Below are positions 11,879-30,197 of a stretch of DNA of 64,000 nt, piece by piece (within the stretch, counting starts at the first letter, position 1; every line of letters begins with the position of its first letter). The notes under the pieces were generated by a model, which did no database searches, was not told the DNA's origin, and was given only the letters and a program-made list of their open reading frames with translations. The position numbers and the translations under genes were made by a program. Source of the DNA: a virus; the IMG/VR virus record IMGVR_UViG_3300042305_001773, positions 62,001-126,000 of that record; one strand, given 5' to 3'.

Positions 11879-14800
11879 TTACGTGTTAAAGGGTGCTGTC
11901 GGGGGTGTGAAGTTGCCGGTGTAAAGTGCCGCGCCCTTCGTGATGCGCAGTTCATCAATGTAGCCGTTAAACCCGTACTGGGCCGTGTGCGCGTAACCGC
12001 CGATCGTCGGCAAGTATGTGAGATTGTTGAAATCAAAAGCGCTATTTACCGGGTCCCCGCCAACACCGTCCAGATACAACCGCATGACGCCGTTGTGCCG
12101 ACACAGCGCAAAGTGCTGCCAAGTATTATTCGACACGGCCGGTCCCCACACATATGTGCCGGGATTTGCTGAGCCGTGATCGAGAAACAGATTGCCTTCA
12201 GAGATTTGCAATGCCAGATAGTTAAAACCGCTTTCGACTTGGCTGTAAATTGTGGTGCCCGGGTCTGGAGCAGTAGGATAAATCCAACCCTCGATTGTAA
12301 AATCTCCCGTACCATACGCGAACATCTCAGGATCTGTCGGTGTCACTTGAACGTTGTCGCCGTAACCCGTGAAATCGCCGCTTGCTCCGTCAAACTTGCT
12401 TTCCGTCGTGCTGATGGCTGCGTTGCCGTTTGACGTTACCGCGTGCGTGTTCGCGCTGCTGTCGGTGAACGTAGTACTACCGTTCGCGCCGTCCATGTGA
12501 AGAAGCAGCACTGTGTTGAATGGCGGCGGCGGCAAGCAGCGATTGATCAAACCACGCTCTAACGCAATCAGCGCGGCTTCGCCCAGCGCGTGGTCAAAGA
12601 TAACTATTTCCGCGATATCGCCGATCAGCGATTCGTTTGCCGCGAGCGAACCGCCGTGACCAATAAACAGGTCTCCGCCCTGTTTAGCTGCCATGTCCGC
12701 ATACAGCGTCGTAGAAACTTCTTCGCCGTTGACCCGGAGTTTCAGCAGTCCGTCAGCGTTAACGGTGTAGCTCAACAGCGTCCAGTCTAGCGGAAGTGTT
12801 GTCGGATACGCGCCGCACTCGTCATTGCCGTAATTACCGGTGCAAGAGGCGTTGTAGAACGTCAACCGATCGGACGGAGCATTGACGTTGATCGTAGCGC
12901 CGTCGAGCGAGTTGTAATCTAGTCCGCTGTCAGGCTGAAAACTCAAAATTCGCGCGTAGGCGTGGTCGTTGTTGGCTTGCTTGAACACCATAAACCCGCT
13001 GGAGTTCTTCAAGTTAAATTGATAACCCACGTCCAGCACGTTCGGGTCGCCGCTGAAGCGCACGACGTCCTGTCCGTTTGGCCCCTCGCCGACCGCCACA
13101 AACGGAGCCGGCGCATAGTCAGCCGGAGTCGCCGTACGGCCGTTTCCGCTCTTGTCAGCCCACGTAACAATCGTGCCGTTAACCTCGCCAATATCGCCCG
13201 TCGAGTCGAGCCACAGATCGCAGCCGGTGACGTCGGTCGGTGTGACGTCGGCTGTTGCGCGGAAAGGAGCAGTCGGCGGGGTGAAGTTGCTTGTGTAGAC
13301 AGCTGTGCTTTTAATGACACGCAGTTCGTCGATATAGCCATTCAACACCGCTGTGGACGGCGAATATCCACCGATGAGTGGCCTGTTAGTTGGGTTTACC
13401 TGATAATTGGTGCTGTCTATAAAGTCACTGCCGCTTTGAACGCCGTCAATAAACAATTTTGTGATACCGCCGCTTCTACAAACGGCGAGGTGATGCCACT
13501 GATTCGCCGTAATATTTGCAGACGCAGAAATGCGATCAGCCGCATTAACGTACCAACGGACATTCCCGTCAGAAATGTACCACGCGGGCGAATTGTTTTC
13601 ATCATAATTTCGCCATTCCATGATGTGCTGAGGTCCGGCCGTGCTATTCAAAAACACCCAGACCTCGACGGTAAAGTCGTCGGACCCAAACGCAAAATCA
13701 TTTGAACTTGCAACCACCAAAGTGCCGGCGCCGGCTAGTGCGAGACTCGCGCCGCCGAACTTGCTCTGTGCGGTGCTGATTTGAGCATTGCCGTTAGCGG
13801 TCACCGTCAACGCATTAGTAGACGAATCCGTAAACGTCGTACTTCCATCAGCTCCGTCAAAATGGAGGAGCAGGTCAGCGGTCGGGCCGGGAACAAACGG
13901 ATTCGGGAACGGAACCGTGGGCGGCGTGAAGTTTGCTGTATAGCGGGCGACGCCCTTTGTAATGCGGAGGTCGTCGATGTAGCAATCGGTTTCCGCAAGC
14001 TGATAGTTGATGGTAGACGCACCAATACTAATACGCGATGCTCCTGTTGGTATCACCGCAGATGTCGTCGTACCTTGCGAGACGCCATCTATGTAAAAAG
14101 TGCGCGTGCTACCGATCTTGGTAATTGCATAGTGATTCCAATAACCAAGAGCCGGGAATGTCACGCTGAACGGCGACGATGAACCGAAATAGTTCCAGTC
14201 AAGGGTTGAATTATTATTGATCAGCCCCCAAGTTTCCCCAGAGTTGTTTTCAAAACAAACGTAGCGATCATTTGGCTCCGTAGAGGTAAATCTCATCCAC
14301 CACTCAACTGTGTAGTCCGCGCTCTCTAGGTCAAAGTCGCCGTCTACCGTCAGGCAGTCGTCCGATTGCAGCAAAACGCTCGCCCCGCCGAACTTGCTCT
14401 GCGCTGTGCTGATGGCAGCGTTGCCGTAGTCGGTCACGGTATTCTGCAGGTACGAGTTGTCTGTAAATACAGCGCTGCCGTTTGCGCCGTCCATATGAAG
14501 CAGCAGCGTGACATTCTCGGCGTAAGGGTCGCCCGTTGGTTGCGTAGCCGGCGGGATGACCGGATCAGGAAGCGCCTTGGTCGGCGGATTGAACTCGGCG
14601 ATGTAACGCGCCACACCCTTCGTAATCCTGAAGTCGTCGATCAGGCCGTCGAGGTAGTAGTCGTCTTCGTTCGTCCAGCGCCGGCCAATCACGGCGGTTG
14701 TCTGCGTGCCGCCGTCCAGATTGATATTTGTATTCGCGGTCGCAACTTCGGCGCCGTTGATGTACATCTTCAGAACGCCGTCGAGCCGCACGAACGCGTA

Positions 14801-17800
14801 GTGCGCCCACGTGTTGTAGTACTCGGCGATGTTGGCCGACACGAATGTGAAATTATCCATGTCGTAGCAGAAGCCAAACATGTTCGTGTCGTCGCTGAAA
14901 CCGATCAGGTACGTGCCGGCTTCCTCTGCTGTCGACGCCGTGGAGAACACTGCAGAGTACTGAACATAACTCAGCTTGCCCCAGAACTCGACGGTAAAGT
15001 CGCCGTCGTCAAAGGCGAACTCGGGTGACATCGCGATCTCGCAGTGTCCGCCCGCAAACTCGCCGCTTGCGTTGCCGTACTTGATATCTTCAAGATTCAG
15101 GTAGGCGCTGCCCGTCGCCGCGACCTCGTGGTTGTGCTTGGACGTGTCGATGAACGTCGTGATCGGCCCAGTTCCGCCACCACCGCCGCCTGCGGCATCT
15201 GGAAAGGCCGCCGTGGGGGGCGTAAAGTTATCAGTGTAGCGCGCGACACCCTTGGTAACCCGCAGTTCGTCGATATAGCCGTCGAAGTTGTACGACGGGC
15301 TGTGGCCGTAACTCCCGACCTGCGGCGTGAACGTAGTGTTGGCGAAATCAAAAGTGCATGCCGCCGGCACGCCACCAACGCCGTCAACGTAAACAGTGGC
15401 CATCCCCTCCTTGCGGCATACCGCAATATGGTGCCACGTGTCGGCCGTTATCGAGCCGCCGTAGACATACGCGCCGGGATTTGAGTAGTTAAAAATAAAC
15501 TGGACTAGTCCGTTTTCGGTTCCAAGAACGCAATAATTGTTGCCCGATGTTGATTGGCCATAGATAACGTGCCAACTGCTTAAATCCGCGCTATTGACCC
15601 AGCACTCGATGGTGAAATCCTCTGTGCCGTAGGCGAAGTTCGCAGATGCGGGGGCGGTCAAGAACGAATTAGAACCGCCGTTAAAGTACCCGCTCGCGCT
15701 GCCGAACTTGATCTCCCCGGTAGAAACAACCGCGTCCCCGGTGGCGACGACGGCCAATGCGTTCGGCGACGAATCGACAAAGGTCGTGCCGTTATTCTCG
15801 CCGTCCATGTGGAGCAGCATCGAAACGTTGTTGAAGTACGGATCGACTCCGGGCGGAGGAACGAGCGTGATCGTGGGGTTTAAGAACGGCGCCGCTGGCG
15901 GATTGAAGTTTTCCGTGTACAGCGCTGTGCCTTTTATGATGCGGAGTTCGTCGATGTGGCCTTTGGAAAAACTTGCAGCGGAAGCTAAGTTCGCATCCGC
16001 TCCGATGTATGTTGGGCCGGGGTTGGTAAGCAAACTACCCGCGTATGTAAATGACAAAACTTGAAGGCCGTCGATAAAAAGACGGAAATTATCTCCAGCT
16101 CGGGTCGCCGCCACATGGTGCCACTGCGCCGGCGCGTATGTTCCTGCCAAGGTAGTGTCCAGCCAACCAGCCCCGGTACTACACAACAGCCTGAACGCGC
16201 TCACACCAGCATACGCACTAATACGCACTTGTGCTGCAGCGGCGCTTTCGCCGACCGTGATCAAAGTATGCGAACCGTCGCCGACGCCACTGCTGTCGCT
16301 CTCTGGTCGCCACCACGTTTCCACAGTCCAGTCACCGCTGCTTAAGTCTATTGCCGCAGTTGGCGCTATCGTGAGTGCAGACGCGGCGTCAAAGTATGCG
16401 CTCGCCCCGCCGAACCTGCTCTGCGCCGTGGATATGGCCGCGTTGCCGGCGCGAGTCACGGCCAACTGATTTTTGCCGCTGTCCGTAAACGTCGTGCTGC
16501 CGTTTGCGCCGTCAAAGTGCAGTAGAAGATCCGGGGCGGGCGTAGACGTTGTCGCAAAGGGCTCCGTCGGCGGCGTGAAGTTAGCTGTATAAACGGCCGC
16601 TCCTTTGACGATACGGACGTCGTCGATATAGCCTTCTACGGTGTATGGTGCTTGTGACGTTCCAATAGTTAACATGTCTGTGGGGTTTAGTACGTACGAA
16701 ACAGAATTGGGCGCGCTGGCGATTTCCGCTCCGTCCGCGAAAAACCGCAGCGTTCCGCTGTGGCGGGCTACTGCTACGTGCACCCACTGCTCAACCGGGC
16801 AGACCCAGCCGCTGCTAGAAAGATCCCAGCCGGTGCAGCCGACACCCATACGAACCTCTGTGGCGCAATTCACGCTCCACGTGCCACATTGTGTTGCGCC
16901 GCCAAATATAGAGGTGTCGCTGGTGTTGGAAAGACGCATCCACCACTCTGCAGTGAAGTCGCCGGTTCCGAAATCAAGCGCAGAAGAATAAGGTATTGAA
17001 AGATATCCACCCCCGCTGCGCGACATAAACAACGACGAGCCGCCAAACTTGCTTTGTGCCGTGGATATGGCGGCGTCACCGTTCGCCGTCACAGTCAGCC
17101 CGTTCTTGCCGCTGTCCGTGAACGTCGTGCTGCCATTTGCGCCATCAAAGTGGAGCAGCAGCGCGGGACCGGCTGGCGGGTTCGGGAACGGCAGGGTGGG
17201 CGGCATGAAGTTGGCGGTGTAGAGGGCCGCGCCCTTCGTGATGCGGAGTTCGTCGATGTAGCCGTTAAAAGTCCTGTAGTTCTCGCCATCCGCCCCTATT
17301 CTGAGATCAGAACTCACCAACGCCGGCCGTGCGCTGTCGTTCACTGTGCCGATTAGTGTGCCATTGGAGAAGGCGTACCAATCGTCGCCGGAACGGCAGA
17401 GAGCCAAATGATACCAGTCCCCAGCAACGGGACTCCACTGACCAAAAACTATATCTCCAGCCGAGCCCAGATGAAAGCCAAGAGCGCTGCCCGGAATCAC
17501 TGGTGCGTTCCAATACAAACCCCATTTCGGGTTGCCCCCGCCGCCGCCAGACTGACCACATATGCTGGTAGGCTGTTCGGTATCTGTAAAATTCAACCAC
17601 ATTTCTATAGTGAAGTCACCGGCGTTCACAAAGTCCCACAAGGAGGAGTCCGGGATAGACAACCAAGAGCCACTGCCGTTGAAATACCCGCTCGACCCGC
17701 CAAACTTGCTCTCTGTTGTAGAAAGCGTCGCGCCATTCGCTGTAACAGTCAGCCCGTTCTCGCCGCTGTCTACGAACGAAGCGCCGTCGAAATGCAGAAG

Positions 17801-20800
17801 CAGCGCCGTCTCAACCGTCGGCATCGTGACGACCTTGGTGTAGCCGAGCGGAAACGAGGCTGTGGGCGGCGTGAAGGCAGCCGTATAACGCGCAAGTCCC
17901 TGCGTGATGCGCAGTTCGTCGATATAAAATTCTTGCGGACCAAAATCAGCGGCCTGTTGACCCACTTGTACTGTGGCGTATTTGGGCAAGTTAAAAGCCG
18001 TGCCCGAATACACCTGCACGCCGTTTACATACATCTTAAATTCGTTTGCGTCTGCGTTGTTGACCCACGCAAGATGCGCCCAAGAACCATATGTATATGG
18101 CGTCGGCGTACTCGGAAACGAATCTGCGGACGGCGTATTTCCCGCGCCCAGCGCTCGCATATAAATAGAATTATCTGCGACTGCGACGTCCATAATCCAG
18201 CGATTTGGAAAATTTTGAGAACCAGCGCCGAGAACTTGTTGGTTATTTACAACGCTCGGGCCGGCGCTTAAAAACCAGCACTCTACAGTCCAACTGCCGC
18301 TAGAGAGATCTACGCCCGGGAAACCGTCAAGATAGTCTGTGTCCGTGTCGGGGCATTTGAGGCTTGCGCCGCCGAACTTACTCTGCGCAGTACTGATTTG
18401 AACCGTTCCTTCAGCCGTAGCCGATCCAGCTAGAGGAGAAGAGTCAACAATATTGGTGCTACCGTTTGCGCCGTCCATTTTGAGGAGCAGCGAGACCTTG
18501 TCGAAGTCGGGGTCGAGGAGCGACTGGCCGGCTTGATTGGGAAACTCTGCTGTGGGCGGCGTGAAGTTGGCCGTGTAGCGCGCGACTCCCTTCGTGATGC
18601 GCAGGTCGTCGATGTACATTTCGGATGTGAAACCGATGTTGTTGGGTTGCATGGCCCCGATCAGCAATCGGTACGGGCCAGCCAAGGGCGCGATGGCGGA
18701 AGAGCCGACGCTCGTGCCGTCCACATAAATCGTGACGGTGCCGTTCGCTCTTGCCGCCGCGATATGAACCCACTGCTCTCGCGGAACCACGCCGCCTATG
18801 GCGCATTGCTGTGTCCCTTCGTCCCACCTCAAGGCGTCGTCAGATCCGATCCATAAATGCAATCCGTAAGGAACATTAATGGTATTAGAAAGATTCAAGA
18901 CCGTAGCGTCGCCAACGGATGACGGACGCCAAACCCACGCTTCAAGCGTCCAATCCCCTTCGGACATGTCCTCGAAGTCCGAAAAATCTCCACTATCCAG
19001 ATAGCCGTTGCCCAAAGACAACGAAGAGCCGCCGAACTTGCTCTGTGCGGTTGAAATAGCAGCACTACCGTTTGCGGTTACAGTCACCGCGTTCGCGCTG
19101 CTGTCGGTGAACGTAGTACTACCGTTCGCGCCGTCCATGTGAAGAAGCAGCGACACGTCGTTGAAATACGGGTCACCGTTACCGCCATCAGTGCCGACCC
19201 CTGCGTTCGCGGGTTTGTCCATATGGAGCAAGAGTGAAACGTTGTCGCCGTATACGTCAGCCGTGAAGTCTTCCTTGCCGAGTTCGTAGTTGTAGAGCAT
19301 CTGGACGTCCTGCAACGACAAGACGCGATCCCAGATACCAAGCTGATCTACCACACACGCGAGGTCGTTCTGCGTCGCCGTCTGGTCGCCAATACCGACG
19401 CGCAGCGGAATGTTTCCCGCACTGAACGACCCGAGCGTGGCGACCTGCGCGGCCTGTGAACCGTTGAGATACAACGTAAGCGTGTTGGCGGTGGCGCTGT
19501 ATACCAGCACAACGTGATGCCAGAGGTTGGCTTCTAGATCCGGCACGACAACGGTGTAAATATCGTCGTCTGTGGCAATACGACCAAACACGGCGTTGGT
19601 GTCAGACCCGTCGTCGCCGAAGCCAAGTTCGACCTGCCCAGAAGCGTTGCCGGCTGCCCAGTTCTGCACGAGCACAGACCGGCCCCCAGCCATGGACGCT
19701 GCTTTAAACCACGCCGAGATAGCGAACGAACCGTCGAGCGCAAAATCGCTGGGCGCCTGTAGGTAGTTGTTTCCGCCAGTAAACTCCGCGGCGTTTTCAA
19801 TGACACCCGAGTCAAAACCAACGGTGCCGGTCGGGGTCAGCGGTACTTCGGCGGCGGTGATATCTAAACGAGCGCCGGTTTCTTCGTTCAACGGCCAGAA
19901 CGCTTTCATGCCCTCACACAGCGGATGCACAGCGCTTACAACAGACCAGCGCTCCATCATGTAATTTTCCGCGTCCAACAAATCGGCCGCGGACAAGACG
20001 CTGTCGTACAAGACAATCTCTGCAATGTCGCCGCTGTAGTTGTCATCGGCAAAGTCGCTGCGCGAGCCGCCGAGCGAAAGGTGCGTCATCGGCGGGACGG
20101 TAAACCCCTCGACTGACACCGTGTTTAAACCATTTAACCGCGTAGACAAACCGGCCAGACTAAACTGCAATGTGTAGACAACCGGTACAAGATTATCGAC
20201 TGCCTGTGTTGCGCTATATTCACCGTCAAAAAATACGCCAAACTCTCCGCCTGTTTCTGTACCGCACAACACAAGCTCTGTGTTGTTGTTAGCCGTATAT
20301 GCCGCAATAACTTTACCGTCGGCACTCGCGCCCCGTCGGCGTAGAGCAACGAGCAGTGTAAACTCCTCGGGCAGGTCCAGCTTGCCGATCATCGCGTCGT
20401 TCTCACCGTCGAACGTCACGACATCTTGATTTGCAAGTTGATTGGCAACAGTCGGTCGGTTTGCTTTATTCGACTGCACGAACTTTGCGTCAGAGTCGGA
20501 AGCGTCCTCCCACAGCGACACGCGGTTGGCAACGCGATGCACGTAGTCAACATTGTCGGCGTCAAGCCACAGTTTCAGGCCGGGTAACGTAGGCGGACTG
20601 AACGTACCGGGTACGGCCGGAACAGCGCCGGCAGTGAACTCACCGCCGTCAACAACTTCCAGCGCGGGATTCGAATATGGTAGGTCGCGCCACGGAGTTA
20701 CACCGTTGCCGTACTTCACCTTATTTGTGTCAATCTCAAGACCCGGCTCGCCGCGGAGCAGAACGGGGTTGAGAGCGTACAGAGCCGCAGCAGTACCGCG

Positions 20801-20824
20801 CTTAAATTGAATATTTGATGGCAT
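11879..20824 (-). CDS. Giant LamG-array adhesin or fibre protein (2,981 residues)
   Basis: The protein begins with the same kind of fibre head (IQFKRGTAAALYALNPVLLR, GVTPWRDLPYS). It continues as a chain of 13 concanavalin/LamG-like jelly-roll modules of about 210-230 residues. Two are of the LWLDA...GDIAEIVLYD type (first and twelfth). One is a classical LamG (FWPLNEETG..., second). Ten are of the LLLHMDGANGSTTFTDSS...IDELRITKGVARYT...FTPPT type. A vestigial start of a module lies between modules 2 and 3. LamG domains usually bind sugars or proteins. No enzymatic motif, signal peptide or membrane helix is seen, so a particle-borne receptor-binding fibre is the best reading. Its arrangement between two paralogous propeller fibres is unusual. 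Confidence 0.87.
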   Translation of the reverse strand: MPSNIQFKRGTAAALYALNPVLLRGEPGLEIDTNKVKYGNGVTPWRDLPYSNPALEVVDGGEFTAGAVPAVPGTFSPPTLPGLKLWLDADNVDYVHRVANRVSLWEDASDSDAKFVQSNKANRPTVANQLANQDVVTFDGENDAMIGKLDLPEEFTLLVALRRRGASADGKVIAAYTANNNTELVLCGTETGGEFGVFFDGEYSATQAVDNLVPVVYTLQFSLAGLSTRLNGLNTVSVEGFTVPPMTHLSLGGSRSDFADDNYSGDIAEIVLYDSVLSAADLLDAENYMMERWSVVSAVHPLCEGMKAFWPLNEETGARLDITAAEVPLTPTGTVGFDSGVIENAAEFTGGNNYLQAPSDFALDGSFAISAWFKAASMAGGRSVLVQNWAAGNASGQVELGFGDDGSDTNAVFGRIATDDDIYTVVVPDLEANLWHHVVLVYSATANTLTLYLNGSQAAQVATLGSFSAGNIPLRVGIGDQTATQNDLACVVDQLGIWDRVLSLQDVQMLYNYELGKEDFTADVYGDNVSLLLHMDKPANAGVGTDGGNGDPYFNDVSLLLHMDGANGSTTFTDSSANAVTVTANGSAAISTAQSKFGGSSLSLGNGYLDSGDFSDFEDMSEGDWTLEAWVWRPSSVGDATVLNLSNTINVPYGLHLWIGSDDALRWDEGTQQCAIGGVVPREQWVHIAAARANGTVTIYVDGTSVGSSAIAPLAGPYRLLIGAMQPNNIGFTSEMYIDDLRITKGVARYTANFTPPTAEFPNQAGQSLLDPDFDKVSLLLKMDGANGSTNIVDSSPLAGSATAEGTVQISTAQSKFGGASLKCPDTDTDYLDGFPGVDLSSGSWTVECWFLSAGPSVVNNQQVLGAGSQNFPNRWIMDVAVADNSIYMRALGAGNTPSADSFPSTPTPYTYGSWAHLAWVNNADANEFKMYVNGVQVYSGTAFNLPKYATVQVGQQAADFGPQEFYIDELRITQGLARYTAAFTPPTASFPLGYTKVVTMPTVETALLLHFDGASFVDSGENGLTVTANGATLSTTESKFGGSSGYFNGSGSWLSIPDSSLWDFVNAGDFTIEMWLNFTDTEQPTSICGQSGGGGGNPKWGLYWNAPVIPGSALGFHLGSAGDIVFGQWSPVAGDWYHLALCRSGDDWYAFSNGTLIGTVNDSARPALVSSDLRIGADGENYRTFNGYIDELRITKGAALYTANFMPPTLPFPNPPAGPALLLHFDGANGSTTFTDSGKNGLTVTANGDAAISTAQSKFGGSSLFMSRSGGGYLSIPYSSALDFGTGDFTAEWWMRLSNTSDTSIFGGATQCGTWSVNCATEVRMGVGCTGWDLSSSGWVCPVEQWVHVAVARHSGTLRFFADGAEIASAPNSVSYVLNPTDMLTIGTSQAPYTVEGYIDDVRIVKGAAVYTANFTPPTEPFATTSTPAPDLLLHFDGANGSTTFTDSGKNQLAVTRAGNAAISTAQSRFGGASAYFDAASALTIAPTAAIDLSSGDWTVETWWRPESDSSGVGDGSHTLITVGESAAAAQVRISAYAGVSAFRLLCSTGAGWLDTTLAGTYAPAQWHHVAATRAGDNFRLFIDGLQVLSFTYAGSLLTNPGPTYIGADANLASAASFSKGHIDELRIIKGTALYTENFNPPAAPFLNPTITLVPPPGVDPYFNNVSMLLHMDGENNGTTFVDSSPNALAVVATGDAVVSTGEIKFGSASGYFNGGSNSFLTAPASANFAYGTEDFTIECWVNSADLSSWHVIYGQSTSGNNYCVLGTENGLVQFIFNYSNPGAYVYGGSITADTWHHIAVCRKEGMATVYVDGVGGVPAACTFDFANTTFTPQVGSYGHSPSYNFDGYIDELRVTKGVARYTDNFTPPTAAFPDAAGGGGGGTGPITTFIDTSKHNHEVAATGSAYLNLEDIKYGNASGEFAGGHCEIAMSPEFAFDDGDFTVEFWGKLSYVQYSAVFSTASTAEEAGTYLIGFSDDTNMFGFCYDMDNFTFVSANIAEYYNTWAHYAFVRLDGVLKMYINGAEVATANTNINLDGGTQTTAVIGRRWTNEDDYYLDGLIDDFRITKGVARYIAEFNPPTKALPDPVIPPATQPTGDPYAENVTLLLHMDGANGSAVFTDNSYLQNTVTDYGNAAISTAQSKFGGASVLLQSDDCLTVDGDFDLESADYTVEWWMRFTSTEPNDRYVCFENNSGETWGLINNNSTLDWNYFGSSSPFSVTFPALGYWNHYAITKIGSTRTFYIDGVSQGTTTSAVIPTGASRISIGASTINYQLAETDCYIDDLRITKGVARYTANFTPPTVPFPNPFVPGPTADLLLHFDGADGSTTFTDSSTNALTVTANGNAQISTAQSKFGGASLALAGAGTLVVASSNDFAFGSDDFTVEVWVFLNSTAGPQHIMEWRNYDENNSPAWYISDGNVRWYVNAADRISASANITANQWHHLAVCRSGGITKLFIDGVQSGSDFIDSTNYQVNPTNRPLIGGYSPSTAVLNGYIDELRVIKSTAVYTSNFTPPTAPFRATADVTPTDVTGCDLWLDSTGDIGEVNGTIVTWADKSGNGRTATPADYAPAPFVAVGEGPNGQDVVRFSGDPNVLDVGYQFNLKNSSGFMVFKQANNDHAYARILSFQPDSGLDYNSLDGATINVNAPSDRLTFYNASCTGNYGNDECGAYPTTLPLDWTLLSYTVNADGLLKLRVNGEEVSTTLYADMAAKQGGDLFIGHGGSLAANESLIGDIAEIVIFDHALGEAALIALERGLINRCLPPPPFNTVLLLHMDGANGSTTFTDSSANTHAVTSNGNAAISTTESKFDGASGDFTGYGDNVQVTPTDPEMFAYGTGDFTIEGWIYPTAPDPGTTIYSQVESGFNYLALQISEGNLFLDHGSANPGTYVWGPAVSNNTWQHFALCRHNGVMRLYLDGVGGDPVNSAFDFNNLTYLPTIGGYAHTAQYGFNGYIDELRITKGAALYTGNFTPPTAPFNT
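12449..12509. repeat. 61-nt exact repeat, copy A (last LamG module)
   Basis: These 61 bases, coding for the start of the thirteenth LamG module, are identical to 19091-19151 at the start of the third module, although the rest of the two modules differs. It is the longest exact match I found in the array by eye. Confidence 0.85.
19091..19151. repeat. 61-nt exact repeat, copy B (third LamG module)
   Basis: This is the partner of the repeat at 12449-12509, in the same orientation and reading frame, 6.6 kb apart. Direct in-frame repeats like this allow deletion or exchange of whole modules by recombination. Confidence 0.85.
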
Positions 20825-20838
20825 GATGTGCTACTGAG

Positions 20839-23559
20839 TTAGGATACGACTGTTATGGGCAAACCAGCGGTGGCACGCAGGTAATCAATGTCGAAATAGT
20901 CTTTAGAGACTTTCGTGATCCTATAGAGATCGCCGGGAAAGTCTACCGCAAAAATGACGCCCGTGGGAGAAGCGCCGTCGCCGGCGTCACCGTATTCGAC
21001 AAGCGGCGGGTGTTGCTGCGTGAAATTTAACACGTGGCTAAATGAGCCGTTATCGTGCAGCATGATTTGATAGCTGCCGAGGTAGCCGGACGTGCCGTTG
21101 GGGGCAAAAGCACTAGAACGGTGAATTGCGTGCTCGTTAGTCAGGTCAATTTCGTAAATAACGCCACGGGCAGCAGGCGAGTTTTCGCTATTTGGCCAGT
21201 ACGTTAAAGCACGCGTTGCCGTGATTGTACCCGTAGCCGTAACCGTACCCGTTGTCGCGACGTTATAGGTAAACGTGTTTGCGTTTACAACGGCGACAGA
21301 AAATACACCATTGAACACAGCCTCGTTTGCCCCGGTTACCTTCACATACGAGCCGTTTACAAAACCGTGCGCCGTTGCGGTACCCGTGACAAGATTGCCG
21401 TCCTGCGCAAGTGCCGTCACCGTTTTGGGCGAATTAGTGCTGCCGGCAAAAAACCCCGCTTGATTGTCAAATATTGCAACAACTTCGTTGCCCGGCGTAA
21501 GCGGATTTACATTAACAGCCCAGCGCGCATGATGCTGGCCTTCAGGGCCAAGATACTGGTAACCCTCTAGTTCCGGCTCGCCTTCAAGGGTCAGCCATTT
21601 GGCGTTATCCAACGTGTACTGGTTTGCCGTCTGCTGAATACCGCCCCACGGTTGTGACGCACCCTGAATCACCCACTTGACGTTTTTAGTCGCGCGCTCA
21701 ACGCAAACAATAGCTGAGCACTGCCGGCAGCTGAACAGCATGTCGCCTGTAACCGGGTGGATATCCACCGAGTTCATGTGGAAGAACGACGCGTTCCGCG
21801 CCAGCGTTGTCTGGTCAAACCTGTCGCTCGTCCACCACTCCCAGCCGATCGTGTTTTGCGGGGTCTGCTCTTGGACATAGACGCCGTACGCTTTGTCGGT
21901 CAGGGCTTGTGAGCCGGCGGTTGGCTGCGTGACGAACGTGTTGTAAAGAATATTGCCACGCTGTTGCGGCGGGCTCTTGATTTCTAAAAACTCGTGATTG
22001 CCAAAGTTGTATTGGTAGCTATTGCCGTTTCGAATAGCTGGCAAAAAGCTGAATTCTTTAGTGTCAATAGAGTCTTCGGTGATCGTCATCGAGAAGCGCG
22101 TACCTGTGCCGTTACGGCTGACGCCGATCTTGTTCCGGTCGTTGCCGTGCTGCGCTAAGTGCGGCGTGCCGGCGTTCTGTACGTACCACACCGGTACGCC
22201 GTTTTCGTCGTACACGATATTGTAGTTGTTGACATTAATGTCACGGCGGCTTGTCGTGATGTAGTAGCCGGGCACGTAGCCGGCTTGCGGCTGTGTTGTA
22301 ATCGTGCCGAGCGGCATATCGGACGGGAGCAGGCGGACATAGTAATCGTCTGTGCCGTTTGTTACGCGAATAAGCTTCCCGACCGAGCTAACACCCGGAT
22401 AAGCGACGCCGTTAACCGTCACTGTGTAGGTGACAGATGAGCCAGCCGCCACAGACGTCGTCAGAATGCCGTAGTCGCGGATTGCCGCGTTGAATGTCGG
22501 ATACAGCGTATTTGTGTTACCGACAATAGAAGCAGTAATTGTGTTAATTGCGCCGGTTACGTTCAACGTGACAAACGCCTCGTAGTTAATAGACGGTTGC
22601 GGAGGCGCCGAAATCGTGTACGTGTTCTCGCCGCCGCCGTACAGCGTTTGAACTTCGGCTGGTGTCAGCGCGCGATTCCAGACACCAAGGCAGTCGATAT
22701 CCGCTGACACAACGTTCGTGCGTCCGAGCATAAACTTGGCTGTGGCGTTCGTCGGGCCAGCGCCGCTAACGAGCACGGCAGCGGTTTGAACGCCGTTTTC
22801 ATAAATGCGCAGATAGTTTTGCGTCGTGTCGTGTACAAAGACAATGTGGCGCCACTGGGCATATGGTAACTCGGTGGCGGTGGCAACTGTTGTGTTTGCA
22901 GTCCCAACTTTCGGTAACCACGTGAGCTTGCCGTCGGGCGCAAAATAAATACGGGCCTGATCAGCTGCGCCGAAGCCGGCGATATTTACAAGCGGATATT
23001 CCGCCGCTGTGGCGCCAAGTAGCGTCCAGTACCCCGGCGAGGGTACGTAGCCAGCGGCGCCAATAAACGTGTGCATCCGCCACAGCTGCCCGTTGAGCGA
23101 AACCATATCGCCGGGGCCGTATGTAACGCCACCGTTATATGCGCCCTTAAAGCGCGTATCGACTTTGACCCACATCGCTAAAGTCTTATGTCCGACAAAA
23201 GCGTTATTTGCGTAATAGAAATTACGCTTTGCCAGCCGCAGTGCGCCGTCGAAACCCGACACTGTCTGCTCCGAAACTCCTTCATACAGCGTGACATTGC
23301 CGCCAGACACGTCATCGACACGCATGCTGTTTCGGTCAAACATCCAGAACGCCATCAATCCTTGGCGCAGCTGGTCATACTGTACTTCGCCGCCGTCGAC
23401 GCCGCCGGACGTCGTAAGGTCAACGACGGAACCGTCAGCTTTTTTCGTAAACAGCCGCCCGTCGGCGGTATTGATAGCTAATTCGCCGAGGGCGAGGTCG
23501 GCGGCTGTCGGTACGGCGCCGGCGTCGCCGCTGCGCTTGTGCTTAATAATGTTTGCCAT
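20839..23559 (-). CDS. LamG plus arylsulfotransferase-type fibre protein
   Basis: The 906-residue protein has a fibre head (IIKHKRSGDAGAVPTAADLA, GELAINTADGRLF). A LamG domain (about 65-310) follows. It is interrupted by a 45-residue segment with YNGGVTYGPGDMVSLNGQLW and PGYWTLLG, which looks like a CBM5/12-type chitin-binding fold. Next is a cadherin-like strand domain ending VRLLPSDMP, then the arylsulfotransferase-type propeller (FHMNSVDIHPVTGDMLFSCR, GWEWWTSDRF, GQHHARWAVN). The propeller is itself split by an insertion of about 70 residues rich in Thr and Val. The second signature is QHHAR where the paralogue at 9599-11872 has QHDAR. The role is probably receptor binding; catalysis is untested. 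Confidence 0.82.
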   Translation of the reverse strand: MANIIKHKRSGDAGAVPTAADLALGELAINTADGRLFTKKADGSVVDLTTSGGVDGGEVQYDQLRQGLMAFWMFDRNSMRVDDVSGGNVTLYEGVSEQTVSGFDGALRLAKRNFYYANNAFVGHKTLAMWVKVDTRFKGAYNGGVTYGPGDMVSLNGQLWRMHTFIGAAGYVPSPGYWTLLGATAAEYPLVNIAGFGAADQARIYFAPDGKLTWLPKVGTANTTVATATELPYAQWRHIVFVHDTTQNYLRIYENGVQTAAVLVSGAGPTNATAKFMLGRTNVVSADIDCLGVWNRALTPAEVQTLYGGGENTYTISAPPQPSINYEAFVTLNVTGAINTITASIVGNTNTLYPTFNAAIRDYGILTTSVAAGSSVTYTVTVNGVAYPGVSSVGKLIRVTNGTDDYYVRLLPSDMPLGTITTQPQAGYVPGYYITTSRRDINVNNYNIVYDENGVPVWYVQNAGTPHLAQHGNDRNKIGVSRNGTGTRFSMTITEDSIDTKEFSFLPAIRNGNSYQYNFGNHEFLEIKSPPQQRGNILYNTFVTQPTAGSQALTDKAYGVYVQEQTPQNTIGWEWWTSDRFDQTTLARNASFFHMNSVDIHPVTGDMLFSCRQCSAIVCVERATKNVKWVIQGASQPWGGIQQTANQYTLDNAKWLTLEGEPELEGYQYLGPEGQHHARWAVNVNPLTPGNEVVAIFDNQAGFFAGSTNSPKTVTALAQDGNLVTGTATAHGFVNGSYVKVTGANEAVFNGVFSVAVVNANTFTYNVATTGTVTATGTITATRALTYWPNSENSPAARGVIYEIDLTNEHAIHRSSAFAPNGTSGYLGSYQIMLHDNGSFSHVLNFTQQHPPLVEYGDAGDGASPTGVIFAVDFPGDLYRITKVSKDYFDIDYLRATAGLPITVVS

Positions 23560-23570
23560 GTGAGTACCTG

Positions 23571-24416
23571 TTAGTAAGCGCCGCCGTCGATAATAGAGTT
23601 GTTGTAAATAACGGTACCGCCGCCACCAAAATTAATTGGGGCATCATCGGCGGCCGAAAAAGTCATCGTGTTAGATACGGTTAATGTTTTTGTCGCGGCA
23701 ACAACTACGCCGGTGGCGTTTTCACCGGCAGGACCTTGCGGGCCGGTCGGGCCTTGTGCGCCAGTTGCACCAATCGCCCCTGTTTGCCCGTCGTTCCCCG
23801 CTGGACCCGCGGGGCCTTGTGGCCCAGTCGCACCTTCTACGCCGGCCGGACCTGTGCTGCCCTGCGGTCCGCGAATCGGGCCGACGTTGACCCAACTTGT
23901 GCCTGTCCAAACAACGCCGTCGCCGGGTAACGTGCCGACTGGCGCGTCGTTTGGCGCCGGATCGGCGATCAGCCACATATCACCTACATCTGGATTTTGC
24001 GCTGGCGGCCACGTAAGCGCCGTACCTTCAATCGTCACACCGGAACCGGCAGGACCTTGCGGGCCGGTGGCGCCAACAAGTCCTTGCGCACCAGTCGCGC
24101 CGGCGTCTCCAGCAGGTCCTTGCGGTCCCGTTGCCCCCTGTGCGCCAGCAGCGCCCTGTGCGCCGGGCTCGCCTTGAGGACCAGTAGCGCCCGTGTCGCC
24201 AGCAGGGCCTTGCGGGCCTGTAGCGCCGCGCGGGCCAGTCGGCCCTGTGGCGCCAGCTCCGCCCCCGCCACCGCCGTCTGTCAAACCGAGAATGGCCCCA
24301 ATCGTTGTGCGCTTTGTCGCCAGATTGTTCGGGTTTTGCGTATCAACAATCGGGACGATGTCGTTCAGCGTTGGTGTTTGTTTTTCAGGTAACGCTGAAA
24401 TACGTTTATTCGACAT
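23571..24416 (-). CDS. Collagen-like fibre protein (short)
   Basis: This 281-residue paralogue of the protein at 6062-8602 has the same kind of head ([20 protein letters not shown], ending TKRTTIG) and a glycine run. Two Gly-X-Y tracts ([20 protein letters not shown]) flank a 50-residue interruption with [16 protein letters not shown], which matches the interruption of the larger protein. The C-terminus is a small strand-rich cap ([19 protein letters not shown]), perhaps a trimerisation element. AGGTG precedes the ATG. It marks the upstream end of the fibre locus. Confidence 0.85.
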
Positions 24417-25515: not shown

Positions 25516-26145
25516 TCATGTGTGTGAGACAGTCTTACGCGAAACGGCAGAAAACAAGCGATAAATTTCTTCGTGTGTAGCGTCAACAGCGGAGTCCGCA
25601 TTGATGTGGTGCACAATGCTTGCGTGCGGACGATGCGCTGCGTGCGTTTTATAAGCCGCCCGCATCCTGTGCTGGTCTTCCAGACAGCGGCGCTCGTAGC
25701 GGTCTGGTTTTGTGCTCCCGGGCGGCCGCCGTTGCCGGACATTTTCAGGCGCGATGTCCATAAGAAAGAGCACGTCAGGGCAGATGTACGACGTCTCACG
25801 AAAAATATTGACAATCAAATCAGTGGATATGTTATTTATTTCGCCCTGATACACGAGCGTGGACAACAACCAGCGATCGCAGATAACAACATGCCCGGCG
25901 GCAAACAGCTCGCGAATGTGCGCCGATAATTCAGCGCGCGCGGCTGAGAACAAAAGCATCTGGGCTGCCGGAGAAATAGGTGCGTCGTTGTGCAGCAGAA
26001 TTTGCCGAATAGCCGTACCAATACTCGTCGTCCCCGGATCTGCTACCTGCGTTGCGGCTACGCCTTCTTTATGCAACCGCTGCAACAACATGCGCGCCTG
26101 CGTTGTTTTACCGGCGCCATCGATTCCTTCGAAACAAACGAACAC
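25516..26145 (-). CDS. tmk: Thymidylate (dTMP) kinase
   Basis: Thymidylate kinase phosphorylates dTMP to dTDP with ATP. The 209-residue protein has the P-loop EGIDGAGKTT at residues 6-15, the DPG segment that contacts the substrate, the DRW motif (residue about 90) and an arginine-rich LID (RRPPGSTKPDRYERR). The length is normal for the bacterial family. The start is a GTG with AAAGGA upstream. Together with thymidine kinase at 3205-3786 it would raise the dTTP pool for phage replication. The two genes lie 22 kb apart, with the portal and fibre genes nearby rather than the polymerase. Confidence 0.93.
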   Translation of the reverse strand: MFVCFEGIDGAGKTTQARMLLQRLHKEGVAATQVADPGTTSIGTAIRQILLHNDAPISPAAQMLLFSAARAELSAHIRELFAAGHVVICDRWLLSTLVYQGEINNISTDLIVNIFRETSYICPDVLFLMDIAPENVRQRRPPGSTKPDRYERRCLEDQHRMRAAYKTHAAHRPHASIVHHINADSAVDATHEEIYRLFSAVSRKTVSHT

Positions 26146-26159
26146 GAGGTTCCTTTCGT

Positions 26160-26474
26160 TTAGCGCCCGGTGATTTGAAAACTAGGCGAATCGCTCCCAG
26201 CTGATTTTGTTATCTTGGTCTGATTGCCAGTAATGTTGATGTCGCCGGGAACAGGGATGATCAACTCGGGCGCCGGCGCGAAAAGCAATAACTCGCGGCC
26301 GTCGGCAAAGCGCAGCGCTAATCCGCTTTGAGTGTGACCAACACCAACGACACTATTTGTTGCAAGCCACACGGCAGCATACTCGCAGAACGCCTTCAGC
26401 TGATCACTGACCAGCTCTGGCTTGTTGGCTGTAAAATCAGCAAGAATGTTATTCAACACTTCGCTTTCGGGCAT
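26160..26474 (-). CDS. Hypothetical protein of 104 residues
   Basis: The ATG at 26474 is preferred because GAGAGG lies 6-10 nt upstream; the open frame extends to 26621, but only over the end of the HD protein gene. The product starts PESEVLNNILADF, has a central strand-rich part (GLALRFADGRELLLFAPAPE) and a polar C-terminus. No family is recognised. It overlaps the end of the HD gene by 26 nt. Confidence 0.6.
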   Translation of the reverse strand: MPESEVLNNILADFTANKPELVSDQLKAFCEYAAVWLATNSVVGVGHTQSGLALRFADGRELLLFAPAPELIIPVPGDINITGNQTKITKSAGSDSPSFQITGR

Positions 26475-27210
26475 ATCGAACCTCTCTTTTCTTTTTAACT
26501 GGAGTGGGTTTGGCCTTTTCTGCCTCAGCCGCGGCAGCACGTATCCCGGTTGTATGTTGTGCAACCATTTTGTCAAGTTTGGCTTTTTGACGACACTCTT
26601 TAATTGCCCGGCTGACGTCACTCAAAAGGTTACGCGCGGCGTGAGAGAACAAGCGAAGCACATAAAACCGCTCGGCGGCGCGCAACGCTAATAGATCGCC
26701 GTCAAGCTGGGTAAGAATCTTCTTTGCTTTTGGCGCGGCCGCGGTGCCATTCGCCGCGACCAGCGCTAGCAAATCTTTAGCGGTACAAATAATGTCGGAA
26801 AGCACGATGATTTGCGCGCCTACCGGACTGCCGCTGACGCGACCACGAAACTCCATATCACGCTTTGTCTCGACCATGCGAAAATCGCGGCTGATGTCCG
26901 CAACCATGGCGGCCACCTGTACCGTCGAGATCTCAGCTATGTTCTCAAACGCGCAAGCACTTATGTTTAGAACATCGTGCAGCAGTGCGCCCTGAATAAT
27001 CGCCGCAATACTGTCTTTCGTATCGTCGGGTAGATAATCGGCGCGGACGTCTTGATACAGTTTATGCGCAATTGTCTCCGCCTGTCGGGCTACCTGTTTG
27101 CTGTGCTCTACAAGACTAATTCCGGCGGTTGTACGTAAATCTCGATAGTGCTGCTCGGCGAAAGCCAGTATTTGCCGTAACGGCACTACTGGGCTGTCAG
27201 ATTTTTTCAT
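26449..27210 (-). CDS. HD-domain protein, SpoT/MESH1-like, altered active site
   Basis: From the ATG at 27210 (GGAG 5 nt upstream; a GTG at 27231 is the alternative) the product has 253 residues. It resembles the hydrolase domain of SpoT and MESH1: a first His in VEHSKQVA (H36), ALLHDV with the HD pair (H78-D79), AMVADISRD, and SPVGAQIIVLSDI with the last metal-binding Asp (D139). The Glu-Asp pair that follows HD by three residues in (p)ppGpp hydrolases is replaced here by Asn-Ile, so classic hydrolysis is doubtful. A lysine-rich tail follows the fold. It could act on another nucleotide or only bind one. It lies between a glycosyltransferase gene and a small unknown gene. Confidence 0.7.
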   Translation of the reverse strand: MKKSDSPVVPLRQILAFAEQHYRDLRTTAGISLVEHSKQVARQAETIAHKLYQDVRADYLPDDTKDSIAAIIQGALLHDVLNISACAFENIAEISTVQVAAMVADISRDFRMVETKRDMEFRGRVSGSPVGAQIIVLSDIICTAKDLLALVAANGTAAAPKAKKILTQLDGDLLALRAAERFYVLRLFSHAARNLLSDVSRAIKECRQKAKLDKMVAQHTTGIRAAAAEAEKAKPTPVKKKREVRYARKRSVE

Positions 27211-27227
27211 GGCATCTCCATATGCCG

Positions 27228-28271
27228 TCACACAAGTTTGAGCAGCGTTTGCCAGCCTAACTCAAACGATTTGCGGCGCGTTGATAAGTTGTAATTCACC
27301 CGGCGATTCAGGTTGTCGATGTGCATTGGTTCTGCAATAAGCGTTTGCAAGCCAGTGATCAACCGTTCATAGTCTGGCGCTGCGTGAGGAACGCCATTTT
27401 CGTCGTAGTCTACTCGTGTCTTTACGAGCACGCCATTCGCATCTTGATATACAAAGTCAAGCTGCGGCGACAGGGCAAATGAAAGCACCGGCGTTCCACA
27501 ATTAATAGACGTCAAACTGCAAAACCCGTAGTTGTCGCATTCGGCCGGAAAAAGGGTCAAATCGTGCGCCGTGTACATCGCGGGCCGTTTGGCAAGCGGA
27601 GTATTACGCACCAGTTTCACGCGTCCGTTTGTCTTGCGCCCCAGCGTCTGAAAAAATTTAGCTACAGACGGCGCAAAGCGACAGGACGTAATAGCCACAG
27701 TAAGTTGCGCGTCTGGCATGCGTTCCAGCAAATAACCAAGCAAACCCAAAAACTGACTGTTTGCGCAGCGGGCGTTGCGGTCAAACCACGGTAAAAATAT
27801 CTTTACCTGCCGACTGTTCACCGGCTTAGTTTTTTTCGTTGCTGGTAGGCCAACATCAAACGGAATGTACGTGACATTCTTTAATTTGTAGACCTTGGCA
27901 AACAGCTCGCGCGACTCCGAATTCATCGCAATCACGTGGTCAGCGCGCTGCATGACCTTGCGAAACGGGCGCATCAGTTCTTGCCACATGGGAACGATAA
28001 TCGTGCGTATCCCAAACCGCCGTGTAAAGTTCAGCGTATCGAGCCGCGGCGGTTGCGTATAAATAATCGTGTGGCACGTTTTAGCCCAGTGCGTAAACGG
28101 GCATTTCTTTTTGTGCACGACAATGCGATCGTGATGCGTGCAGAGTTTGGCTGGCGGCGCATCGGAATAGATGGTGTATTCGACGCCCTGCGTGCGCAAA
28201 AAGTCTGCAAGCCGCACAGCAAAGTACGCTTCGTCGCAATGGGCGTAGTGTGTATAGATACCAATACGCAT
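27228..28271 (-). CDS. GT-B-type glycosyltransferase
   Basis: The 347-residue protein starts MRIGIYTHYAHCDEAYFAVR, a typical first Rossmann strand with a glycine-poor loop. The donor domain (about 155-320) shows LTVAITSCRF, RVKLVRNTPLAKRPAMYTAHDL and LFPAECDNYGFCSLTSINCG followed by TPVLSF. This is the pattern of GT4-like enzymes in which an acidic residue before the CGTP segment binds the sugar nucleotide. It is clearly different from the enzyme at 976-2118. The gene is 3 nt from the portal gene and its stop overlaps a GTG of the HD gene. The acceptor is unknown. Confidence 0.78.
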   Translation of the reverse strand: MRIGIYTHYAHCDEAYFAVRLADFLRTQGVEYTIYSDAPPAKLCTHHDRIVVHKKKCPFTHWAKTCHTIIYTQPPRLDTLNFTRRFGIRTIIVPMWQELMRPFRKVMQRADHVIAMNSESRELFAKVYKLKNVTYIPFDVGLPATKKTKPVNSRQVKIFLPWFDRNARCANSQFLGLLGYLLERMPDAQLTVAITSCRFAPSVAKFFQTLGRKTNGRVKLVRNTPLAKRPAMYTAHDLTLFPAECDNYGFCSLTSINCGTPVLSFALSPQLDFVYQDANGVLVKTRVDYDENGVPHAAPDYERLITGLQTLIAEPMHIDNLNRRVNYNLSTRRKSFELGWQTLLKLV

Positions 28272-28274
28272 AAG

Positions 28275-30197
28275 TTATTGAGCTGGCGCACCTTGGCCAA
28301 ATTGTTGCGCCATCACCATTGCGCCGCCTTGAGACCGCGCTTGCTGCCGAATGTCGTCAATGATGCTGGTCACAAGCGCGTGCATCGTCGAGTCGGAGCG
28401 CTTGAGTTTGATTAGCTCTGAATCCTTTACAGACTCAGGCATAGACAACAGCTGATTTGCAATAAGCTGCGCCTGCTGCTGCAGCTCTTCAGGCGTTCTC
28501 GGTACGTTCGGCGAGTTCTGCCGCTGCGATAGAAACTGGTCGACCGGACTCGGCATCTGACCCGGCATACCACCGGCCGGAGCTTGAGCCGGCGCGCCGC
28601 CTCCTTGCGGCATACCCGTAGCGCCGGCACCAGTGTTGCCGACACCTGACATCATGTCGGGCGCCTGACTCATATCCTTCATCTGCTGCGCCTGCTGCAT
28701 CTCAGCCTGCATGCGCTCTTGCTCTTCCGCGTAGATCTTCTCTTCTTCGAGCATCTGCTTGATCTCGTCGCGATAGTCCAGACCAACACTCGACAGCCCG
28801 GTGCTCTTGCTGATCTGCTGGCCCTGCATGAGCTGGAGTTTGGCCATCTGACGATTGAGGTCGTCGGCGTGCGTGACGCGCATAAGCTTGGCGCTCACCG
28901 GCTCCCACGACATAACGCGCGAAATAGAAGACACAAGCTCGTTGAGAAACAAGTTCATATTGTGCGGTAAGTGGCTCCAGTTCGCTTCAAAAAGGCGTAG
29001 CGCGGCGGGAGCGGCTTGCAGCGTGAGCGTGCCGTTAAAAAGCTCGACCGGCATTCCGATGCACTTCAGCAGTGTTTCGAGCCCCTGATCAAGCAGGTCG
29101 CGCGGGGCGAGCTGCGACGCGTCGCCGCCAAGGGCCTGATACTGCACGGGGAACGGAAGAATGTTCCATCGCGCCGGGTCTGTGCGGCGAGCACGAATCA
29201 TCGAGTTTACACGCGCCGTAAAGCTCGACAGATTAATAGTGTGAACCGGATCGGAAGACTGCGAGTCGCCGCCACGGGGCATCGGCGTAATCACGCGAAA
29301 CGGGATAACATAATCCAGCGCAACAGCTTCGTTGTATCGCTTCAAAATTTGGTAGTACCACGCTTCGCGGAAGTTAGCCAGCACGCGCGAGATACCCCAG
29401 CCGCGGTTACGCATACCGGCCAGCGGATCTTCTTTCAGATGGAAAATCACACCCTTATCAAACATCAAGTTCTGGCCATTCTTGATCGCCTGAATAACTT
29501 CCCAACTAGCGCGCTCAAGATGATGTAAATGGCCCTGTTTGATCAGCGTGCGATAATCTTCTGGGATCTTCCACACATACGAGCACTCGCCCGTGTACGG
29601 ATCCCACAAGATATCAATTTCGTGCGGGCTCCAGCGCTTGACAGTGATATGGCTTGTATCACCACTACGCCGGTCGATATGTTTCCACGGCCCGACGTAT
29701 TTGCATTTTGGGCAGCTAGCGTGAAACTGGAAATTCTGCCACGAGAACGCGCACTGGTCTGAATTCACGACCCGATCAAGCGGCATTTCAAGTCCGCATT
29801 TTGGGCAGAACAGATAGCGCCGAAACGGCACAAGCAGACTTGTAAAAGAGTTGCCGTAGGTCATGTAATCCATGCCTACAGAGTGCAGTACATTTTTAAT
29901 GCTGAGCGTGTCCGAAAGAAATGTTTCGTACTTCTCTTTCTCTTCACGCCCGGTTTTGTTTTCACCGACGTCTTGAATTTCAACGTCTGTAATAAAATAA
30001 GACACCACGCGATCGATGGCCTGCCGATACGGGCCATTCGCGTTCATAATGTATTCCGTCCAGCGCAGCGCGGTCTGGATGCTCTCCGGCATCGACAGAC
30101 TAGCTACGTCACAGAACGGATCAGGAAACCGCTCGTCGGCTTGTACGCCGCGACCGAGCGAGTTGTACCCCATAGAAGCAGATGGTTGCAGCGACAC
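28275..30197 (-). CDS. Portal protein
   Basis: The portal forms the dodecameric ring through which DNA enters and leaves the head. The 640-residue protein starts at a GTG with GAGG upstream and shows portal-type segments: ALRWTEYIMNANGPYRQAID at the start of the clip and stem region, TYGNSFTSLLVPFRR, then LKEDPLAGMRNRGWGISRVL with the long helix AWYYQILKRYNEAVALDY. GMPVELFNGTLTL and an ANWSHLP segment follow. The last 130 residues are Gln/Met/Pro-rich and low in complexity. Unusually, two CPKC pairs (about residues 131 and 162) suggest a zinc ribbon inserted in the wing region. The assignment rests on pattern and size, not on a search. Confidence 0.8.
   Translation of the reverse strand: MSLQPSASMGYNSLGRGVQADERFPDPFCDVASLSMPESIQTALRWTEYIMNANGPYRQAIDRVVSYFITDVEIQDVGENKTGREEKEKYETFLSDTLSIKNVLHSVGMDYMTYGNSFTSLLVPFRRYLFCPKCGLEMPLDRVVNSDQCAFSWQNFQFHASCPKCKYVGPWKHIDRRSGDTSHITVKRWSPHEIDILWDPYTGECSYVWKIPEDYRTLIKQGHLHHLERASWEVIQAIKNGQNLMFDKGVIFHLKEDPLAGMRNRGWGISRVLANFREAWYYQILKRYNEAVALDYVIPFRVITPMPRGGDSQSSDPVHTINLSSFTARVNSMIRARRTDPARWNILPFPVQYQALGGDASQLAPRDLLDQGLETLLKCIGMPVELFNGTLTLQAAPAALRLFEANWSHLPHNMNLFLNELVSSISRVMSWEPVSAKLMRVTHADDLNRQMAKLQLMQGQQISKSTGLSSVGLDYRDEIKQMLEEEKIYAEEQERMQAEMQQAQQMKDMSQAPDMMSGVGNTGAGATGMPQGGGAPAQAPAGGMPGQMPSPVDQFLSQRQNSPNVPRTPEELQQQAQLIANQLLSMPESVKDSELIKLKRSDSTMHALVTSIIDDIRQQARSQGGAMVMAQQFGQGAPAQ

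Follow-up and report, generated by a model that had tools for sequence, protein, structure and literature searches.

A predicted small alarmone hydrolase fold without its catalytic pair, encoded two genes from the portal gene in a phage lineage

Phages are known to carry enzymes that act on alarmones. Jumbo phages encode HD-alarmone phosphodiesterases described as degrading alarmones (PMC7824862), the small alarmone hydrolase (SAH) of Pseudomonas phage Adele is described in the same terms (PMC12846349), and the SAH of phage SSU5 removes the toxSAS tRNA modification (PMC11559606). A degenerate form is on record as well, in that RelA carries an HD pseudo-hydrolase domain of the RelA/SpoT homologue (RSH) type, in which hydrolysis has been lost and which has a regulatory role (PMC8012599). 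Here we analyze a gene of the IMG/VR virus record IMGVR_UViG_3300042305_001773, which is 205,044 bases long and of which positions 62001-126000, a stretch of 64,000 nucleotides, form what we call the window. The gene, on the minus strand at 26449..27210 of the window, encodes a protein of predicted SAH/MESH1 fold. On profile and fold comparison, the protein is descended from SAHs or shares ancestry with them and has lost the residues that cut alarmones; judging by the alignment, the usual mode of holding alarmones has probably been lost as well.

The open reading frame runs from 26449 to 27231, where a GTG would give 260 amino acids. A second start, the ATG at 27210 (253 amino acids), matches that of the relatives in the alignment and agrees with the start given in a preliminary description made from the DNA alone; the in-frame GTG is a possible alternative, and residue numbers count from it. 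The same description had assigned the product to the SpoT/MESH1 type of HD protein, and our comparisons agree with that assignment. An AlphaFold2 (AF2) model built on an alignment of 55 distinct sequences reached pLDDT 83.5 and pTM 0.77, and Foldseek of this model against the PDB placed MESH1 and SAH structures at the top (9chy_A, E 2.2e-6). In a VIA comparison, SAH/MESH1 chains scored Z 18.8-20.5 against the model, the best being 6yvc_A (Z 20.5, root-mean-square deviation 2.5, 172 residues aligned). Next came SpoT and 7smg, a (p)ppApp hydrolase of Bacteroides, at about 16, and other HD hydrolases scored lower, YpgQ at 13.6 and YfbR/DatZ at about 9.8-9.9; this ranking does not favor placement in another HD family, which the preliminary description had named as grounds for rejection. 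Finally, hhalign matched the family to six phage SAHs plus human MESH1 with a probability of 96.7 and E 4.3e-10.

Searches with single sequences gave fainter signals. The window protein scored 19.3 bits against Pfam HD (E 0.0015, under the curated cut-off) and 13.8 bits against HD_4 (cut-off 27.2, E 0.05); the strongest family member reached E 1.4e-6 against HD_4, and a search of the window's own record with the HD_4 model matched the SAH-like gene alone. Single-sequence phmmer on PDB sequences returned fly Mesh1 at the top (E 0.023); the family profile, run on PDB sequences by hmmsearch, found no HD protein up to E 10. A chance HD motif was considered and is ruled out by the profile and fold evidence. 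The 253-residue protein has no second domain and no synthetase fusion, and the spacing from its HD motif to the distal Asp, 61 residues, equals that of human MESH1, in which we take the two residues to be His61 and Asp122. This numbering follows a MESH1 sequence that we presume to be correct and that matched PDB 3nr1/5vxa over the aligned part, except for the known D66K of the 9chy/5vxa record.

Relatives occur on at least 87 public viral contigs, several of them near 200 kilobases (kb). This figure combines 80 loci (84 relatives), four contigs found with wider motifs, and three found with an independent motif. Most relatives were recovered through the motifs VETKRDM or L[TA]QLDGDL or wider forms of them, which biases the set toward conservation at these places; the independent motif, residues 102-110, gave 74 relatives in its scan, including a new full-length sequence, L307, that lacks both original motifs as first used. 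Identical proteins were merged before counting, and the 59 distinct sequences on which our counts rest (55 plus 4 added later) form the tree, L307 and the partial L316 standing outside it; the window protein and L002 are identical over the tree columns. Beyond viral contigs of this kind the family was not encountered: tblastn of the window protein gave no match in phage records or plasmids, tblastn of the metal-less relative L095 gave none in phage records, two scans of genome contigs found no member, and a PHROGs search gave no lead. Distant relatives of the portal were traced to 344 loci, and the best 80 of these, many of them short, contained no family member.

Where alarmone hydrolases have Glu-Asp, the window protein has Asn89-Ile90 (26962..26967), as the preliminary description had pointed out, and the replacement extends to the whole family. 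Residue 89 is Asn in 52 of the 59 sequences, Gln in two, His in two, and otherwise Arg, Gly, or Ala; residue 90 is Val in 50, Ile in 4, Thr in 4, and Ser in 1. Neither Glu at the first position nor Asp at the second occurs in any of them (0/59 each), and Asn89 is a feature of the family rather than a slip of one sequence. The catalytic Glu is present in all seven reference SAHs, that is, MESH1 and the six aligned phage SAHs, five of the latter keeping the Asp as well. An alarmone hydrolase in the usual sense was considered and rejected, because the pair is absent across the family and the Glu is kept in the reference SAHs.

The positions that contact the substrate have changed too. We take Asn126 and Arg24 of MESH1, numbered on the sequence mentioned above, to be the counterparts of RelSeq Asn148 and Arg44. 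In RelSeq, Asn148 contacts the base and the 3'-phosphate, Arg44 is a further alarmone contact, and the changes R44Q and D78A are cited as abolishing hydrolysis (PMC13299517). Where the base-contacting Asn would stand, the window protein has Thr150 (26782..26784), and the family has Thr in 51 sequences, Ser in 4, Ala in 2, and Asn in only 2. The Arg lies in the alpha2/alpha3 loop, which aligns in two ways, hhalign pointing to window Arg33 and counting from Phe24 pointing to Thr34. By either alignment the family has no conserved Arg in the loop: column 33 (55 sequences) holds Lys in 13, Gln in 11, Arg in 7, Pro in 7, Thr in 6, His in 3, and others, and column 34 (59 sequences) holds Thr in 45, Ser in 10, Ala in 2, and Asn in 2.

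The metal ligands tell a more divided story. The window protein retains all four, as described earlier: His43 (27103..27105), the HD motif His85-Asp86 (26974..26979), and the distal Asp146 (26794..26796). Across the family these are present in 53, 50, 48, and 45 of the 59 sequences, respectively, and the complete set is found in 43, the window protein included. At least one ligand is changed in the other 16, and on a tree built without the ligand columns, the metal set must have changed at least six times. One clade of eight (support 100/100) lacks His85, Asp86, and Asp146, having Ala, Leu, or Ser at 85, Glu at 86, and Ala, Gly, or Ser at 146. Outside this clade, L056, L066, L067, and L072 lack Asp146, three of the four also lacking His43; L073 has Tyr43, Pro86, and Asn146; L086 has Arg85 and Glu146; and L068 and L157 differ by Asp86 to Glu alone, a residue that may still bind metal. 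L307 has Glu at both 86 and 146. Perfect ligand conservation within the set defined as intact was set aside as circular. The fold appears to persist when the ligands are gone, as the model of metal-less L095, built on an alignment that includes metal-intact rows, is also of SAH type (pLDDT 88.3; Z 18.4 to 7qoc_A, root-mean-square deviation 2.7 over 176 residues).

Elsewhere in the protein, 35 non-ligand residues are invariant in all 59 sequences, metal-less members included. They include, in a charged segment, R115-S135 (RDxRxxETxRDxExRGRxSxS, 26827..26889), the residues R115, D116, R118, E121, T122, R124, D125, E127, R129, G130, R131, S133, and S135. L307 keeps every one of these positions despite its recovery through a different motif; Q140 is not invariant once L307 is counted, because this sequence has His140. 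Further invariant residues are Q175, D177, D179, and L180 of QLDGDL (residues 175-180, 26692..26709), an insert relative to SAHs; Y190, L192, R193, and H197 of YxLRxxxHAARN (190-201, 26629..26664), which the model places within the C-terminal helix; and K211. The metal-less pair L093/L113, the sole such pair in which the synonymous rate (dS) is unsaturated, has a ratio of nonsynonymous to synonymous change (dN/dS) of 0.087 at dS 0.48, indicating strong purifying selection; metal-intact pairs give 0.03-0.08, values that are rough since dS exceeds 1.3 in all. Because 35 residues are invariant and a metal-less pair is under purifying selection, the conserved function seems to be independent of the metal site. 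A special role for the basic C-terminal tail, KKxEVRYARKR, was considered and set aside, as the DNA encoding this conserved tail also carries the ribosome site and start codon of the gene that follows, and the tail may be kept for that reason.

That next gene (26160..26477, minus strand) encodes 105 amino acids with no family match, and its ATG and ribosome site lie inside the 3' end of the SAH-like gene, the two genes overlapping by 29 bases. It is followed by a thymidylate kinase gene (25516..26145, minus strand; Pfam E 5e-33). Directly upstream of the SAH-like gene is a glycosyltransferase-like gene (27228..28271, minus strand; weak Pfam Glycos_transf_1), and two genes upstream is the portal protein gene (28275..30197, minus strand), whose product shares 27-30% identity with the protein annotated as portal in Salmonella phage Arash and with one of Vibrio phage D69. 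In all 54 representatives the portal gene is followed by the glycosyltransferase-like gene and then by the SAH-like gene, which keeps the same orientation; the 105-amino-acid gene comes next in 53 and the thymidylate kinase in 50, the remaining contigs ending there. A promoter scan found nothing on the strand of the SAH-like gene.

The window has other features of note. A second glycosyltransferase-like gene lies at 976-2118. Arylsulfotransferase (ASST) domains occur in two tail-fibre-like proteins, at 20839-23559 and 9599-11872 (Pfam E 3e-11 and 1.8e-11); one of the two also has a Laminin_G_3 domain, and one has Mtd_N. To our knowledge, it is unusual for a phage fibre to carry a sulfotransferase-like domain. 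Between these genes, at 11879-20824, is a protein of 2,981 amino acids that has an Mtd_N domain at its N-terminus and 12 Laminin_G_3 stretches; it is probably a giant fibre that binds the receptor. Collagen-like proteins are encoded at 6062-8602 (nine Collagen stretches) and 23571-24416 (Gly-X-Y repeats visible).

What the SAH-like protein does can be approached from these data. We put the chances at about even that it is an SAH-derived pseudoenzyme that works by binding through its conserved charged residues and is perhaps made together with virion proteins. A non-enzymatic job is probable, because the catalytic parts are changed, the metal site is gone in several relatives, and other residues are fixed. 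Alarmone hydrolysis would then no longer be performed; segment 115-135, together with the conserved helix at the C-terminus, could bind a protein or else a polyanion, for instance nucleic acid; and the metal site of metal-intact members such as the window protein would be a relic or hold a structural metal. The weakest step concerns the partner, which would most likely come from the late virion-assembly program, because the gene keeps its place two genes behind the portal gene, in the same orientation, within a phage lineage. We are doubtful about, and offer only tentatively, a more specific scenario in which a phage lineage with genomes of about 200 kb captured an alarmone hydrolase fold as a core non-enzymatic factor of virion assembly or associated with the portal, its metal centre decaying branch by branch. 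Several points count against a role in binding and assembly. A purely vestigial site might have decayed further than in a family where 43 members, the window protein among them, keep all four ligands; Asn89 is present in 41 of these 43, which could mean that the site is still in use; and two of the 16 altered sets, L068 and L157, carry merely the Asp86 to Glu change. Synteny with the portal is no proof of an assembly role, and the gene for thymidylate kinase, which is metabolic, lies just as near. The invariant residues come from an alignment and may or may not form one surface patch, and the motifs used in the searches account for part of their invariance.

The retained ligands, together with the hydrolase fold, would also suit an active HD phosphohydrolase that depends on metal and has changed its substrate, Asn89 serving as an altered catalytic residue and activity having been lost secondarily in some lineages. 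We consider this unlikely, as the recurrent changes of the metal set occurred while the 35 other residues stayed invariant, metal-less members included, and the SAH substrate-contact positions are replaced. Hydrolysis of a different nucleotide, suggested in the preliminary description, is weakened because relatives repeatedly lose theirs yet keep the rest of the protein. The other suggestion made there, that alarmones are bound without being cut, would suit a sensor or sponge for alarmones or other nucleotides: the SAH fold is retained, and loss of Glu-Asp would be expected to stop catalysis. Such a binder is improbable, given that the equivalent of Asn148/Asn126 is replaced in 57 of 59 sequences, that neither candidate column for Arg44/Arg24 holds a conserved Arg, and that, in some members, ligands are missing for the metal in contact with the 3'-phosphate. 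Of the earlier interpretation, then, the fold, the kept ligands, and the lost pair stand, and alarmone binding is poorly supported. The many invariant Arg residues might also suit a counter-defence protein that binds tRNA or toxin against toxic alarmone synthetases, in place of the tRNA-pyrophosphate removal of the SSU5 SAH; no toxin gene or tRNA link was found here, and the fixed site beside the portal gene points to a core rather than an accessory role, making this very improbable.

An HD protein of SpoT/MESH1 type that turns up in a phage is easily labelled an alarmone hydrolase and interpreted as counter-defence. Such an annotation would mislead here, because in this family the fold seems able to serve as a conserved core gene of the phage with the catalytic residues gone. 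If the protein is indeed a pseudoenzyme that acts by binding, its metal-intact and metal-less relatives form a set for studying how an enzyme fold turns into a binding protein. In the available parts of the literature searched, we recognized no description of a stand-alone, lineage-wide phage version with recurrent metal-site loss. The jumbo-phage and Adele enzymes share with the window family a phage-encoded HD domain of SAH type, and the window family lacks the catalytic pair. The RelA pseudo-hydrolase is likewise a degenerate RSH-type HD domain, fused to a synthetase in RelA, whereas the phage protein stands alone. Closest are the SAHs themselves (MESH1/HDDC3, the Pseudomonas aeruginosa SAH, and phage SAHs), which resemble the window protein in fold (about 172 residues, Z 19-20.5), in HD-to-Asp spacing, and in its metal ligands. 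Relative to them, the phage family has Asn-Ile in place of Glu-Asp, does not keep the base-contacting Asn and the Arg, adds an insert after the first-His helix, the QLDGDL insert, and a long C-terminal helix, and has metal ligands that are not fixed.
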